Shown: positions 32,525 through 41,810 of the stretch, piece by piece
Position numbering within the stretch: position 1 is the stretch's first letter
How the letters are laid out: every line of letters begins with the position of its first letter
Assembly (NCBI GenBank): GCA_947479915.1
Contig: CANKAU010000008.1
Location: forward strand, 1 to 64,000
DNA from: Chloroflexota bacterium
GTDB taxonomy: Bacteria; Chloroflexota; Dehalococcoidia; UBA2979
Direction: 5' to 3'
DNA: 64,000 bases
The notes under the pieces: generated by a model
Seen by the model: only the letters and a program-made list of their open reading frames with translations
The model's database searches: none
Told to the model about the DNA's origin: nothing
Position numbers and translations under genes: made by a program

Positions 32525-35425
32525 CTAGCGCTCGTCGCCGGGGCGGAGGCCGGACGCGCCGATCGGGGCGCGGCCTTTGCGTTGGCGCCGCGGGCCGGCA
32601 CCGGCGCGCGAGGGCGTCCCGGGGCGCTCGACGCGGACGGCGCAGGCCTTGAACTCCGGGATGCCGGAGGGCAGGTCGAGCGCGTCGTTCGTGAGGAAGT
32701 TCGCCGCCATGCCCTGCAACTGCACGAACGGCACGAAGAGCTCGCCGCGCTGCATCCGTGCGTCGACGTGCAACTCCGCGACGATCTCCCCACGCCTCGA
32801 TGCCAGTTGCACCTCGTCGCCGTCCGCGAAGCCGAGGCTCGCGGCGTCCGCGGGGTGCATGTCGACGGCGAGCACAGGGACGGTGTCGAGGAGTCCCGGC
32901 ACGCGCCGCGTGATCACGCCGGTGTGCCAGTGGTACAGCGAGCGCCCGGTGACCAGCGTGTACGGGAAGCGCTTGCTGGGCAGCTCAGCGGCGGCAGGGC
33001 CCTGCTCCACCGCGACGAACTTGCCCAGGCCACGCGCGAACTCCGTCTCGAACAGCCTCGACGTGCCGGGATGAGTCGCGTCCGGGACGGGCCACTGCAG
33101 GCCGCCCTCGCGTTCGAGGCGGTCGTGCGACAGGCCGGCGATGATCGGCATCAGCGACGCCATCTCCTCGAACACCGCGCTGCTGTCGGGGTAGTCGAAG
33201 CCGCGCACAGGACGCTCGAGGATGCGCAGCACACGGCGTGCGATCTCGGCGGTGATCGCCCAGTCCTCGCGCGCCTCGCCGGGCATCGGCAGCAGCGGGC
33301 GCACGAGTTGCACGCGTCGCTCGGAGTTGGTGAACGTGCCGTACTTCTCCGCGAACGACGCGGCGGGTAGGACCACGTCCGCCATCTCCGCTGTCTCGTG
33401 CATGAAGATGTCCTGCACCACGAGGAAGTCGAGGTTCGCGAAGGCGTCCCGCGTGTGCGCGAGGTACGGATCGCTGATCAACGGGTTCTCGCCCACGACG
33501 TACAGGGCGCGCAGCCGGCCTTCGATCATTTCCTCGATCATGTGCGTCGACTGGAGTCCGGGCGTCTGCACGAGGTCGACGCCCCACGCGGCCTCGTACT
33601 TCGCGTGCGCGGGGCCGGTGTAGGGCTCGTAGGCCGGGAACGAGTTCGGCAGGCAGCCCGAGTCCGAACAGCCCTGCACGTTGTTCTGGCCGCGCAGCGG
33701 TGAGATGCCGTTGCCCGGGCCGCCCACCTGCCCGGTGACCAGCGCGAGGTTGATCAGCGAGCGCGCGTTGTCAGAGCCATTGGTGTGCTGCGTGATCCCC
33801 ATGCCCCAGATCAGGCACGAGCCACGCTCCTCGCCGTCCCGGCCGGGGCGAGGGCGCGCGTACAGGCGCGCGGCGCGGCGGATGTCATTAGCCGGCACGC
33901 CGCAGATGCGCTCGGCGTCCTCGGGCGTGACCTGGTCGACCACGCGGCGCCACACCTCGAAGCCCTCCGTGCGCGCCTCGACGAACTCGGGTGCCCACAG
34001 GCCCTCGTCGAGGATCACGTGCGCCATCGCGTTGAAGAGCGCGACGTCGGTGCCGGGGTGCGGCTGCAAGTGGATCTCCGCGAGGTCGCAGAGGTCGATG
34101 CGGATCGGGTTCACGACGATCAACGTCGCATCGCGATCCTCGACGGCGCGCCGCAGCCTCGATGCGATCACGGGATGGTTCTGCGCCGTGTCGCTGCCGA
34201 CGACGAGCAGCGTGCCGGCGATGTCGTAGTCGGCGTAGGAGTTGCTGGTCGCGCCGGAACCGACCATCTCCTGCAGCGCGACCACGGACGGGGCGTGGCA
34301 CATGCGGGAGCAGTGATCGATGTTGTTTGTGCCCATCACGGCGCGCACGAACTTCTGCATCACGTAGCCGTCTTCGTTCGTCGCCTTCGCCGAGGCGATG
34401 CCCGCGAACGCGCCGACCGAGGCCGCAAAGCGCTGCGCTACCAGGTCGAGTGCCTCGTCCCACGTGGCGCGCTCCAGCGGTGCGCCCTTGCCGCCTCGAC
34501 GGACCAGCGGTTGCGTGAGGCGCTCTTCCGACTGCGCGAACTCGAGGCCGAAGCGGCCCTTCACGCAGGTCATGCCCTGCGATGAGCCGTTGCCCGGCAT
34601 GCCGTCCACCCACGCGATGCGGCCGTCCTCCACGCGTACCGACAGGCCGCACCCGACGCCGCAGTACGGGCACGTCGTCTCGGTGACGGCGACCGTCGAG
34701 GGCGCCACGACGACGGGGAGCGCGATCATTGCGGGGCGGTCGACCTCGACGCGATGGGATGCGGTGGCCGGCGCGATTTTCGGCATGAGCGCGCCGGTGG
34801 GGCACTGCGACACGCACTGGCCGCACGATGTGCAGATCGAGTCCTCCCACTCGGCGTCGAACGCGACGCCGATGTGCGCCGTGGCGCCGCGGCCGTTGAT
34901 GCCGATCGCGCCGATGTGCTGCGTGCGCTGGCACGCAGCCACGCAGCGGCCGCAGAGGATGCAGTCCGTCATGTCGAGGTTGAAGAACAGGTTGCTCGCG
35001 TCGACCGGTGCGCCGATGCCCGTGGCGCGTGGCCTCGGTGCATACGACGAAGCCTCCAGACCATGGGCGCGCGCGTGCTGCGCGGCGGCGCCGTGGCCGA
35101 TGCCGTCGTCCGACATGCCGATCGTGAGGTCGAGCACGCCGCGGCGGACGCGCTGCGCCTTCTCGCCGTCAGTGCGGATCGCGGCGCCTTCGGCGATCGG
35201 CGTGTGGCATGCGGCGACGAGGCGTGCGCTGCCCTCGACTTCGACGAGGCAGGTGCGACAGGCCCCGAGCGGGCCGCGCGCATCCGGTGTGCAGAGGTGC
35301 GGGAGGTCGGCGCGTGCCGCCTCGATCGCCTCGAGGATCATCGCGCCCCGCGGGACGGTGACAGTGCGGCCGTCGACGGTCACCTCGATCGGCGCGGTCG
35401 CGATCGGTAGCGCGATCTCAGGCAT
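32525..35425 (-). CDS. fdsA: NAD-dependent formate dehydrogenase alpha subunit
   Basis: A 966-residue molybdo/tungsto-bis-pterin enzyme that oxidises formate to CO2. N-terminal part: a plant-type [2Fe-2S] site (LGACRTCLVEVEG), a NuoG-like cluster, then two [4Fe-4S] motifs (CILCGRCVAAC, CTSCGQCVSQC). Then comes the catalytic part with its own [4Fe-4S] (CPYCGVGCGL) and the Mo-ligand Cys376 in SRMCHAPSV, a Cys and not selenocysteine. The C-terminal molybdopterin-binding domain contains LVTGRSLYHWHTG. There is no Tat signal, so it is cytoplasmic. It is the last gene of an operon with FdsG- and FdsB-like subunits and overlaps the preceding small gene by 8 bases. PurU (40941) could supply formate. 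Confidence 0.93.
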   Translation of the reverse strand: MPEIALPIATAPIEVTVDGRTVTVPRGAMILEAIEAARADLPHLCTPDARGPLGACRTCLVEVEGSARLVAACHTPIAEGAAIRTDGEKAQRVRRGVLDLTIGMSDDGIGHGAAAQHARAHGLEASSYAPRPRATGIGAPVDASNLFFNLDMTDCILCGRCVAACQRTQHIGAIGINGRGATAHIGVAFDAEWEDSICTSCGQCVSQCPTGALMPKIAPATASHRVEVDRPAMIALPVVVAPSTVAVTETTCPYCGVGCGLSVRVEDGRIAWVDGMPGNGSSQGMTCVKGRFGLEFAQSEERLTQPLVRRGGKGAPLERATWDEALDLVAQRFAASVGAFAGIASAKATNEDGYVMQKFVRAVMGTNNIDHCSRMCHAPSVVALQEMVGSGATSNSYADYDIAGTLLVVGSDTAQNHPVIASRLRRAVEDRDATLIVVNPIRIDLCDLAEIHLQPHPGTDVALFNAMAHVILDEGLWAPEFVEARTEGFEVWRRVVDQVTPEDAERICGVPANDIRRAARLYARPRPGRDGEERGSCLIWGMGITQHTNGSDNARSLINLALVTGQVGGPGNGISPLRGQNNVQGCSDSGCLPNSFPAYEPYTGPAHAKYEAAWGVDLVQTPGLQSTHMIEEMIEGRLRALYVVGENPLISDPYLAHTRDAFANLDFLVVQDIFMHETAEMADVVLPAASFAEKYGTFTNSERRVQLVRPLLPMPGEAREDWAITAEIARRVLRILERPVRGFDYPDSSAVFEEMASLMPIIAGLSHDRLEREGGLQWPVPDATHPGTSRLFETEFARGLGKFVAVEQGPAAAELPSKRFPYTLVTGRSLYHWHTGVITRRVPGLLDTVPVLAVDMHPADAASLGFADGDEVQLASRRGEIVAELHVDARMQRGELFVPFVQLQGMAANFLTNDALDLPSGIPEFKACAVRVERPGTPSRAGAGPRRQRKGRAPIGASGLRPGDER

Positions 35426-39293: not shown

Positions 39294-39761
39294 CTACGTG
39301 AGGCGGACGTCGCCGAGCGGGGTGCGAGGCACGTCCTGGTGGGCGTTGACCATGTGCCGCGCGAGCGGGCCGAGGTCGGCGAAGACCTCCGCCATCTCCT
39401 GCTCGCCCACGCCGACGGCGCGGAACGCCTCGCCCATGTGTCGAAGCCAGAGGCCCGCCATTCGCTCGTCGATGACGAACGGGAAGTGGCGCATCCGCAG
39501 GCGCGGGTGCCCGTACTGCTCGCTGTAGCGTGGCTCGCCACCCAGCCACTGCTCCATGAACAGCGCCTGCTTTTCGCGACCCGCGCGCAGATCCTCGGGG
39601 AACAGCGCGCGCAGTTCCGCGTCCGCCTCGACGAGGTCGTAGAACGCCTCGACGATGCGCTCGATCACTTCGCGGCCACCGATGCGGTCGAGGAGCGCGG
39701 GCTGACGCTGCGCGGGCGCGCGGCCGGCGGGCGGGGAGCCGGGGATGGGCTGTTCGTTCAC
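39294..39761 (-). CDS. Truncated hemoglobin, group II
   Basis: A 155-residue globin of the short 2-on-2 type. Visible: LLDRIGGREVIERIVEAFYD, the LRALFPEDL turn, QWLGGEPRYSEQYGHPRLR and the proximal His region MRHFPFVIDERMAGLWLRHM with the group II Trp. Such proteins bind O2, NO or peroxide. A Pro-rich N-terminal extension of about 20 residues is extra. The start is GTG 39761, 6 bases after TACACT on the minus strand. It is divergent from the redoxin/selenoprotein gene, a possible redox-stress pairing. Confidence 0.92.
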   Translation of the reverse strand: MNEQPIPGSPPAGRAPAQRQPALLDRIGGREVIERIVEAFYDLVEADAELRALFPEDLRAGREKQALFMEQWLGGEPRYSEQYGHPRLRMRHFPFVIDERMAGLWLRHMGEAFRAVGVGEQEMAEVFADLGPLARHMVNAHQDVPRTPLGDVRLT

Positions 39762-39832: not shown

Positions 39833-39836
39833 ATGA
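39798..39836 (+). CDS. Possible 12-residue leader peptide (uORF)
   Basis: ATG 39798 opens [12 protein letters not shown] and its TGA (39834-39836) overlaps the ATG at 39833 as ATGA. TAGGAT lies 8 bases upstream of 39798, so the mRNA would start near this ATG. The layout suggests translational coupling to the selenoprotein gene. It is too short for composition to prove coding. Confidence 0.3.
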   Translation: MPVHHPRPEGPR

Positions 39837-40903
39837 CCAACGACGCACCGAAGGAGCTCGCGCCGAACTTCCGGTACCCGGAGAGCGGTGACTTCCCCAC
39901 GGGGCCAGAGGTCGGCGAGATGCTGCCGGACTTCACGCTGATGGATCAGCACGGCCGGCCGGTGAACTTCACCGCCGAGCGCGCAGGCCAGCGCGCGCTG
40001 GTGGTGTTCCACCGCTCCGCTCGCTGGTGACCGTTCTGCCGCACGCAGCTCGTGCAGCTGCAACAGAACCTGCCCACCTTCACCGCCGCGGGGATCAAGG
40101 TCTTCGCGATCTCGTATGACCCGGTGGAGGTGCTCGCGAAGTTCGCGGGCGAGTTCGGTATCACCTACCCGCTGCTGTACGATCAGGGCTCCGTGGTGAT
40201 GAAGCGCTACGGCATCCTCAACACGATGATCCGTCCCGAGGAGACCGAGTACTACGGCCTCCCGTACCCCGGCACGTACGCCGTGGGCGAGGACGGACGC
40301 GTCACGGAGAAGTCGTTCTTCCGCTACTACCGCGTTCGCCCCTCTGCGCAGTCGATGCTGAAAGACATGTTCGACGTGGACTTCGACGCCGGCGGTGACC
40401 CGCACGTCGAGGCGGCGGGCGAGGGTGTGCAGGTGTCCGCCGTCCTGGCCTCGGACGCGCTCCTGTTCATGCAGCGCGACCCGCTCTACGTGCGCCTCGC
40501 GCTCGACCCCGGGCTGCACATCTACCGCGGGCCCGTGCCGGAGGGCTTCGTCGCGACCGAGGTGACCGTCACCGGCCCCGACGGGCTGGTGGTCGACGCG
40601 CCGGTCACCCCGGAGGGCCACCCGTTCCGCGTGCAGGGCATCCCGCACGACTTCGAGGTGTTGGACGGCAACGTGGAGATCGAGGTGCCCATTTCGTGGA
40701 CGCAGCCGGACAACGCGCCGGATGCCGCTACCCACGTGCCGCTGGAGATCACCGTGCGCTACCAGGCCTGCGACGAGCAGCAGTGCTTCATCCCTCGCAC
40801 CGTGGCGATGCACCTCGACGTGCCGGTGGGCCGCCTGTTCCGTGCGATGCCTGCCGGGGCGCCGCCGCCCCCGCCGCCATCCGGCGACCCGCCGAAGGGA
40901 TAA
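39833..40903 (+). CDS. Putative selenoprotein: redoxin (U-P-F-C) fused to a DsbD-alpha-like domain
   Basis: The frame contains one TGA at 40028-40030 and is otherwise open for 356 residues. The text around it is VVFHRSARW-(TGA)-PFCRTQL; in related peroxiredoxin-like proteins this place is W-C-P-F-C. The TGA therefore stands at the first redox Cys (position 66 here), with the second Cys at 69. The thioredoxin fold continues after it ([42 protein letters not shown]), so the protein is not simply truncated. A hairpin at 40033-40069 fits a bacterial SECIS. Residues about 190-330 resemble the N-terminal domain of DsbD, with a Cys pair C313/C318 ([10 protein letters not shown]). A Pro-rich tail ends it. 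Alternative start: 39788. Alternatives to Sec are a nonsense mutation or sequencing error. Confidence 0.8.
40033..40069 (+). promoter_or_regulatory. SECIS-like hairpin downstream of the in-frame TGA
   Basis: Outer stem GTTCTG (40033-40038) pairs with CAGAAC (40064-40069). Inner stem GCACG (40041-40045) pairs with CGTGC (40051-40055) around the loop CAGCT. The inner stem begins 10 bases after the TGA, close to the roughly 11-base spacing known for the E. coli fdhF SECIS, and the loop contains a G. The asymmetric internal loop (2 and 8 bases) is acceptable for such elements. Confidence 0.65.
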
Positions 40904-40940: not shown

Positions 40941-41810
40941 ATGAGCGCGAACGCTGCCCCCTCCGCCCGCCTGATCGTCCAGTGCCCCGATCGCCCCGGC
41001 ATCGTTGCCGCGGTGTCGCAGTTCCTGTTCCAGCACGGCGCCAACATCATGTCCGCCGACCAGTACTCGACCGCGGGTGGCGCCGGGCGCTTCTTCCTGC
41101 GCGTGGAGTTCCAGACCGACGGCCTCGACTGCACCGTCGAGGCGTTGCGCGAGACGTTCCGCACTGAGATCACGTCGCGCTTCGACATGGACTGGAAGCT
41201 GGACGCGGTGCACCGCCCGCGCGTCGCGATCCTCGCGTCGAGGACTGACCATTGCCTCCTCGAGCTGCTGTGGCGCTGGCGCGGGGGCGAGCTGCCGATC
41301 GACATCCCGGTCGTGATCTCGAACCACGAGGCGCTCCGCAAGGACGTCGAGGTATTCGGCATCCCGTTCCACGTCTTCCCGGTGACGCCGGAGACGCGGC
41401 AGCAGCAGGAGCAGGCGATCCGCGCGCTGCTGCGCGAGCAGGACATCCAGCTGGTGGTCCTCGCGCGCTACATGCAGATCTTGAGCGGCGACTTCATCGC
41501 GGAGTACCCGGCGCGGATCATCAACATCCACCACTCGTTCCTCCCCGCCTTCGCCGGCGCAGACCCCTACGGGCGCGCCTTCGAGCGCGGCGTGAAGATC
41601 ATCGGCGCGACCGCGCACTATGCGACCGAGGACCTGGACGAGGGCCCGATCATCGAGCAGGACGTGGTGCGCGTCTCGCACGGCGACACGCGCGAGAGCC
41701 TGATGCGACTCGGGCGCGAGGTGGAGCGATCCGTGCTCGCGCGCGCGGTGCAGTGGCACATCGAGGATCGCGTCTTCGTGCACGGGAACCGCACGGTCGT
41801 CTTCCACTAG
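40941..41810 (+). CDS. purU: Formyltetrahydrofolate deformylase
   Basis: A 289-residue enzyme that hydrolyses 10-formyl-THF to THF and formate. An N-terminal ACT domain ([20 protein letters not shown]) is followed by a formyltransferase-type domain with LEILSGD-like [10 protein letters not shown], the catalytic [16 protein letters not shown] and [19 protein letters not shown] with the conserved Asp. Length and motif order match PurU. The formate produced could feed the formate dehydrogenase encoded 3.4 kb away, linking C1-folate balance with NADH production. ATG 40941 is supported by the -10 box. Confidence 0.95.

Follow-up and report, generated by a model that had tools for sequence, protein, structure and literature searches.

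A probable selenocysteine-containing redoxin joined to a DsbD-alpha-like domain in Chloroflexota

Introduction

In the genome of a Chloroflexota bacterium, an otherwise continuous reading frame contains a single TGA at the place where a thioredoxin-like redox motif would carry its first cysteine. Does this codon end the gene or is it read as selenocysteine (Sec), and which chemistry would the resulting protein perform? We addressed these questions in a window, that is, the whole stretch of 64,000 nucleotides that was analysed, and in related genomes. The host genome of the window is a 2.32-Mb draft that is 93.6% complete. Homologs were collected from 98 related genomes, from larger sets covering the phylum (400 genomes) and the class (393 genomes), and from a GTDB-wide contig set that was scanned once; 43 Chloroflexota homologs were read codon by codon.

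Results

The reading frame and its internal TGA

The gene occupies positions 39833-40903 of the forward strand. It is a 356-codon frame (356 aa, TAA stop) whose sole internal stop is the TGA at 40028-40030, which corresponds to residue 66 and to position one of U-P-F-C, in the context FHRSARW-U-PFCRTQL (WUPFC motif). The putative resolving cysteine of this motif, Cys69 (40037-40039), is invariant across all homologs. The two nearest homologs (L072 and L030) start at the aligned position, which supports 39833 as the start. An earlier sequence-only reading of this DNA had placed a TGA at the first active-site position of an otherwise continuous frame and had predicted that an automatic gene caller would split the gene in two. 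Both statements hold: the list of open reading frames of the window gives two entries, 39788/39833-40030 and 40052-40903. The open frame alone is little proof of a gene, because 4.5% of the stop-to-stop runs in this GC-rich window (79 of 1746, at 70% G+C) are equally long, i.e. at least 290 codons. Open-frame length was thus rejected as statistical evidence, and the case rests on comparative data.

Codon 66 is TGA in 40 of the 43 homologs and TGC, encoding Cys, in the remaining three (L068, L069 and L070). The TGA form is held by 22 of the 98 related genomes, with further cases among the 400 phylum and 393 class genomes, and in all full-length homologs found, whether the genome is of the same family, the same class or the same phylum, the frame runs on through this codon. 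Full-length homologs with a WUPxC site all carry TGA, and none of the 43 homologs read combines the full-length architecture with Cys at this codon. In three same-genus comparisons, dN/dS amounts to 0.09-0.15 upstream of the TGA and 0.14-0.33 downstream. Together with the continuing frame, these values bear out the earlier claim that the downstream part is conserved coding sequence. Homologs ending at the TGA would have spoken against a Sec reading; those found either continue past it or carry TGC, the latter in two separate paralog lineages.

Viewed in isolation, a lone TGA in a normal frame looks like a nonsense mutation in a decaying gene, or like an assembly or read error. The recurrence of TGA at this codon in 40 homologs, which span several classes and many genera, the purifying selection on both sides of it and the co-varying hairpin described below argue against this explanation and leave it a negligible probability. 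The comparative data refute a pseudogene, and a read error is ruled out by the recurrence of the TGA in about 30 other assemblies.

No full-length relative outside Chloroflexota was found in the one scan of the GTDB-wide contig set, and a plasmid scan gave no match covering 80%. In three homologs (L071, L106 and L111), the C-terminal domain and the redoxin domain, the latter behind its GILN motif, are enlarged by insertions of about 15-40 residues. Redoxins that stand alone and have TGA at the Sec position of WU-x-[Y/F]-C were observed in another genome of the Dehalococcoidia class (L061, at about 1615) and in an Acidobacteria MAG (L032, at about 5130); the former bears the same GCAGCTCGTGGAGCTGC hairpin as the gene studied here. 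At about 1219 in L065, a WUPFC redoxin frame seems to run into alpha/beta-hydrolase-like sequence (GYSMGG), which is either an assembly chimera or one more selenoprotein with a fused domain.

A SECIS hairpin after the TGA

Bacterial SECIS elements are modelled with a loop of 3-9 nt, a stem of 4-16 bp, a UGA-to-loop distance of 16-37 nt and a minimum free energy of at most -7.5 kcal/mol, with a G within the first two loop positions that is often followed by G or U (PMC13188914, Fig 2A). In the window, a hairpin GCAGCTC-GTG-CAGCTGC with the apical loop C-GUG-C is found at 40045-40061 on the forward strand, where six core pairs join 40045-40050 with 40056-40061. It starts 14 nt after the TGA and covers positions 18-34 counted from it, with GCAGCTC-GTG-[G/C]AGCTGC as its general form. 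Its 6-bp stem, its loop CGUGC with G in second place and its 20 nt between UGA and loop all fall within the rules of the model, and its folding energy is -7.5 kcal/mol for the 17-mer alone and -15.5 for 48 nt.

Over the six core pairs and the 40 Sec genes, the two bases pair in 98.8% of cells. All six are present in 37 of the 40 genes; 2000 synonymous recodings gave 6.3 such genes on average and at most 16. For the window hairpin alone, 17.6% of synonymous recodings keep all 6 pairs, and the strength of the test lies in the 40-gene set. The C19-G33 and A20-U32 pairs are present in 40/40 rows, while compensatory changes, affecting both sides each time, turn G18-C34 into C-G in two genes and G21-C31 into A-U in three. 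Leu73 is encoded by CTC in 33 of 34 genes; in conserved Leu columns outside the hairpin, the commonest codon accounts for 47-59%. In the three Cys-type homologs, the stem is broken: 4 of 6 core pairs are left and the folding energy is -3.9 to 0 kcal/mol. This loss of the SECIS wherever Cys replaced Sec provides a clean example of an RNA structure maintained for recoding only.

Variation within the hairpin is so low that a shuffle test of structure pairs, run on 25 rows, was weak, and synonymous recoding of 40 rows was used in its place. A covariance model built without the genus of the window recovered the site in the whole genome at an E-value of 1.4e-17, with the next match at 0.013; this model also reflects coding conservation and counts as supporting, not independent, evidence. 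No Rfam SECIS family matches at the hairpin site, which is unsurprising because bacterial SECIS elements are diverse.

Selenocysteine machinery of the host

The host genome encodes selA (541 bits), selB (310 bits) and selD (353 bits), all above curated cut-offs, and a tRNA-Sec (selC) with anticodon TCA that scores 72 bits with the Rfam model and is also called by ARAGORN. The sequence-only reading had named these four genes as a check, and their joint absence would have told against it; all of them are present. Over 99 genomes, selA was detected in 20 of the 23 that have the TGA form and in 41 of the 76 that do not. The three TGA-form genomes without selA reach a completeness of only 75-81%, and selB and tRNA-Sec are present in two (G003 and G065).

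The same tRNA-Sec lies at the end of one contig (G000:C29:26872-26964, L001) and at the start of another (G000:C65:53-145, L002), which reflects either an assembly overlap or two copies. Elsewhere in the window, a formate dehydrogenase-like protein (32525-35425, reverse strand) has Cys (CSRMCHAPS) where Sec-type formate dehydrogenases carry Sec, and so is not on its own a reason for the genome to retain a Sec system. Neither a full-gene homolog nor selA was found in three genomes of the same genus (G002, G004 and G005), which are 72-88% complete; G005 has selB and tRNA-Sec, and a fragment of the gene encoding 37 N-terminal residues lies at the end of one of its contigs (L062).

Suppression of TGA is known from bacteria, and the codon might be read as another amino acid, through a code change or near-cognate read-through, or act as a regulated stop that gives a short redoxin fragment. 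None of our analyses favours such readings. TGA is the normal terminator of neighbouring genes, for example the MFS and nuoE-like genes of the window, and several homologs of the gene itself terminate with TGA after the C-terminal domain. In addition, the full sel machinery and the SECIS are present, the replacement at codon 66 in relatives is Cys, and a protein ending at a regulated stop would lack the remainder of the thioredoxin fold. A code change and a stop-regulated truncation were rejected on these grounds, and we consider them very improbable. UGA 66 is, as judged from the sequence data, almost certainly decoded as Sec: the hairpin would recruit SelB with Sec-tRNA(Sec) to the codon 14 nt ahead of it.

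Two domains and their fold

With the TGA read through, Pfam identifies AhpC-TSA (PF00578) at residues 27-159, with 94.2 bits for a cut-off of 26 and with U66-P-F-C69 inside the match, and DsbD_N (PF11412) at residues 213-323, with 36.6 bits for a cut-off of 25; the homologs score 40-57 bits with the latter model. Combined with an AlphaFold2 model, these matches delineate a redoxin domain of peroxiredoxin/thioredoxin fold at residues 27-160 (39911-40312) and a DsbD-alpha-like beta domain at about residues 188-340 (40394-40852). The model of the full protein, computed from a shallow alignment, has a pLDDT of 79.6 and a pTM of 0.74, with values below 50 for the first 20 and last 18 residues, and the predicted relative placement of the two domains is moderately certain. 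Modelled alone, the C-terminal half reaches a pLDDT of 85.3. Its top eight PDB matches in Foldseek are Neisseria nDsbD (6dnv, 6dps), E. coli DsbD-alpha (1vrs) and ScsB, while the best matches of the redoxin half are Bcp/PrxQ, AhpE and ResA. Profile and fold thus both confirm the DsbD-alpha-like assignment of the sequence-only reading. The Cys pair that it had located there, Cys313 and Cys318 (YQAC-x4-C), is indeed encoded at 40769-40771 and 40784-40786, and a profile search aligns it with the DsbD pair, weakly (E 0.08).

There is no membrane domain within the 356 aa, for which Pfam gives redoxin-type domains and DsbD_N only, and no signal sequence or membrane segment is evident by reading. From this lack, the protein is probably cytoplasmic. 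In known systems, DsbD-alpha is periplasmic.

The gene is flanked by a divergent truncated globin gene (Bac_globin; PF01152, 98 bits) at 39294-39761 on the reverse strand, 71 bp upstream, and by purU, encoding formyltetrahydrofolate deformylase (TIGR00655, 399 bits), at 40941-41810, 37 nt downstream on the same strand. Co-transcription of purU with the selenoprotein gene is possible, and purU is also the neighbour in L030/L073, L074, L076, L077, L080, L083 and L085. The globin is a conserved neighbour in loci of several genera: it lies near the redoxin gene on the opposite strand in L030/L073, L075, L076, L077, L078, L080 and L085, and farther away in L074. Through guilt by association, it hints at oxygen, NO or peroxide chemistry.

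Such chemistry would fit the main rival to a redox relay, namely a Sec peroxidase in which Sec66 reduces peroxides and the C-terminal pair only recycles Sec66, making the protein a peroxiredoxin with a built-in reductase domain. The PRX fold, with AhpE and Bcp as best PDB matches, points in the same direction, as does the best NCBIfam similarity, which is to thiol peroxidase Bcp, though below its cut-off. However, no NCBIfam peroxiredoxin model reaches its cut-off, nor does any NCBIfam selenoprotein model. The peroxiredoxin motif PxxxTxxC/U is also absent: the segment reads F59-HRS-A63-RW-U66, no such P or T is found among the invariant columns, and the site is the Trx-like WUPFC. For lack of this motif, the protein is filed with the Prx-like UxxC oxidoreductases and not with true peroxiredoxins, and we hold the peroxidase version to be unlikely.

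The UPxC site and the C-terminal Cys pair

All 36 homologs with U-P-x-C carry the C313/C318 pair, which is missing from all 7 with U/C-[A/G]-F-C. These pair-less paralogs (L067, L068, L069, L070, L083, L084 and L096) have a degenerate C-terminal domain. Four of them (L067, L083, L084 and L096, with U-[A/G]-FC) retain Sec, whose chemistry is there independent of the pair. Two copies occur in each of four genomes, one full-length and one pair-less in G019, G033 and G039, and two pair-less in G006. On a maximum-likelihood tree, the Pro and pair traits change three times each, 2 of these changes lying on well-supported branches; Sec was replaced by Cys twice, within lines already devoid of the pair, and the SECIS hairpin was lost there. 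The association between Pro and pair is perfect but corresponds to about 2-3 evolutionary events, a number at which a sign test cannot reach significance. The joint retention and loss of UPxC and pair across these sequences is compatible with a functional coupling of selenothiol and pair. It lends indirect support to the internal electron transfer that the sequence-only reading had suggested, which is plausible.

Alternatively, the two domains could work separately, an ordinary UxxC selenoprotein being attached to a client-binding or structural DsbD-like module whose Cys pair is redox-inactive or metal-binding. The paralogs that keep Sec next to a degenerate C-terminal domain are in line with this possibility, as is the moderate certainty of the inter-domain geometry. 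Yet the pair is invariant in all UPxC homologs though the proteins diverge to about 35-40% identity, and the fold matches that of the redox-active nDsbD, with the Cys pair at the aligned place. Independent domains are, on this evidence, decidedly improbable.

Discussion

The joint best explanation for the gene is a selenoprotein in which Sec decoding is combined with a two-domain redox relay, to which we assign a probability of roughly 0.7. The protein would be a thiol/selenol-disulfide oxidoreductase. As suggested by fold and motif, Sec66 would attack and Cys69 resolve in the PRX-like/ResA-like domain, and electrons would be exchanged between this centre and Cys313/Cys318 of the attached DsbD-alpha-like domain; we infer this route through C313/C318 by analogy. 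The redoxin would thus take the role of DsbD-gamma and the C-terminal domain that of DsbD-alpha, in one soluble chain devoid of a membrane part. The C-terminal pair may deliver electrons to the disulfide of a client, or re-reduce the selenothiol once an oxidant has oxidized it.

Beyond this single protein, we lean towards the view that a soluble two-domain selenoprotein family of Chloroflexota, undescribed so far, couples a Sec redoxin to a DsbD-alpha-type domain as an intramolecular selenothiol-to-disulfide relay that is complete in itself. The Cys pair would go only with UPxC, and divergent paralog lines would have lost the pair and, twice, Sec. Annotated as two fragments, the enzyme is invisible to routine annotation, though it recurs across Chloroflexota. 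It would extend the range of Sec to a protein with a DsbD-alpha-type domain, which elsewhere acts as the terminal electron carrier in a periplasmic pathway. With two redox centres in one chain, the exchange between them is directly measurable, and the paralogs offer three naturally occurring states (Sec with the pair, Sec without it, Cys without it) in which the contribution of Sec can be probed.

Prx-like UxxC selenoproteins were already present in the Sargasso Sea survey (PMC1088965), and Prx and Prx-like selenoproteins fused to other Cys-bearing domains in the GOS data (PMC2398784). The sequence-only reading considered the present fusion unusual, and as far as the searched literature goes this is correct, since no report of the architecture was found. 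No Prx-like/DsbD_N fusion stands among the entries as printed in a 2026 catalogue of 119 families (PMC13188914), and DsbD is unmentioned in the GOS selenoprotein paper (PMC2398784). The architecture thus appears to be new, with a remaining doubt as to whether an entry catalogued under a single name, such as the 'Redoxin family protein' UxxC (record HEU0032618.1; PMC13188914), may be this very protein. Since selenoproteins of the Prx-like UxxC type and fusions of Prx-like domains with other partners have been described before, the novelty of this unreported architecture is that of a variant within a known group.

The closest known proteins are compared here in turn. With the Prx-like thiol:disulfide oxidoreductase UxxC selenoproteins (PF00578/PF08534; 'Prx-like 1/3' of GOS; PMC1088965, PMC2398784, PMC13188914), the protein shares the AhpC-TSA/redoxin domain, the UxxC that replaces the TxxC/U of PRX, a bacterial SECIS after the UGA and the existence of Cys homologs. 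Those selenoproteins are listed by the redoxin domain alone, whereas a DsbD-alpha-like domain with an invariant pair is added here. The SelL-related redox protein (NF040769) has the PRX-like fold in common, with a partial match at residues 31-131 (37.4 bits for a cut-off of 120), but its model has no C-terminal DsbD-like domain. The GOS fusions Prx-PP2C, Prx-like 2/Secretin_N-like and Prx-like 3/Unknown_3 also join a Prx or Prx-like selenoprotein to a Cys-bearing second domain; their partner domains differ by description (PMC2398784), though 'Unknown_2' or 'Unknown_3' (three Cys, a CxxC) may resemble the domain studied here. A DsbD-like part enters the description of just one catalogued selenoprotein family, TsoB (NF045694), which the 2026 catalogue lists as rhodanese/DsbD fusion-like (PMC13188914). 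It differs by its rhodanese partner and its two Sec in UxxxxU, and the 39833-40903 protein has no NF045694 match. Finally, DsbD and ScsB share with our protein the nDsbD fold, the YQ-x-C...C element and the combination of an alpha-type domain with a Trx-fold active site in a single protein. In contrast to both, the chain described here has no membrane beta domain and no evident export signal, and its redoxin comes first and its alpha-like domain last; compared with DsbD, it carries a PRX-like redoxin in place of DsbD-gamma, Sec in place of Cys, and C-x4-C in place of C-x5-C.
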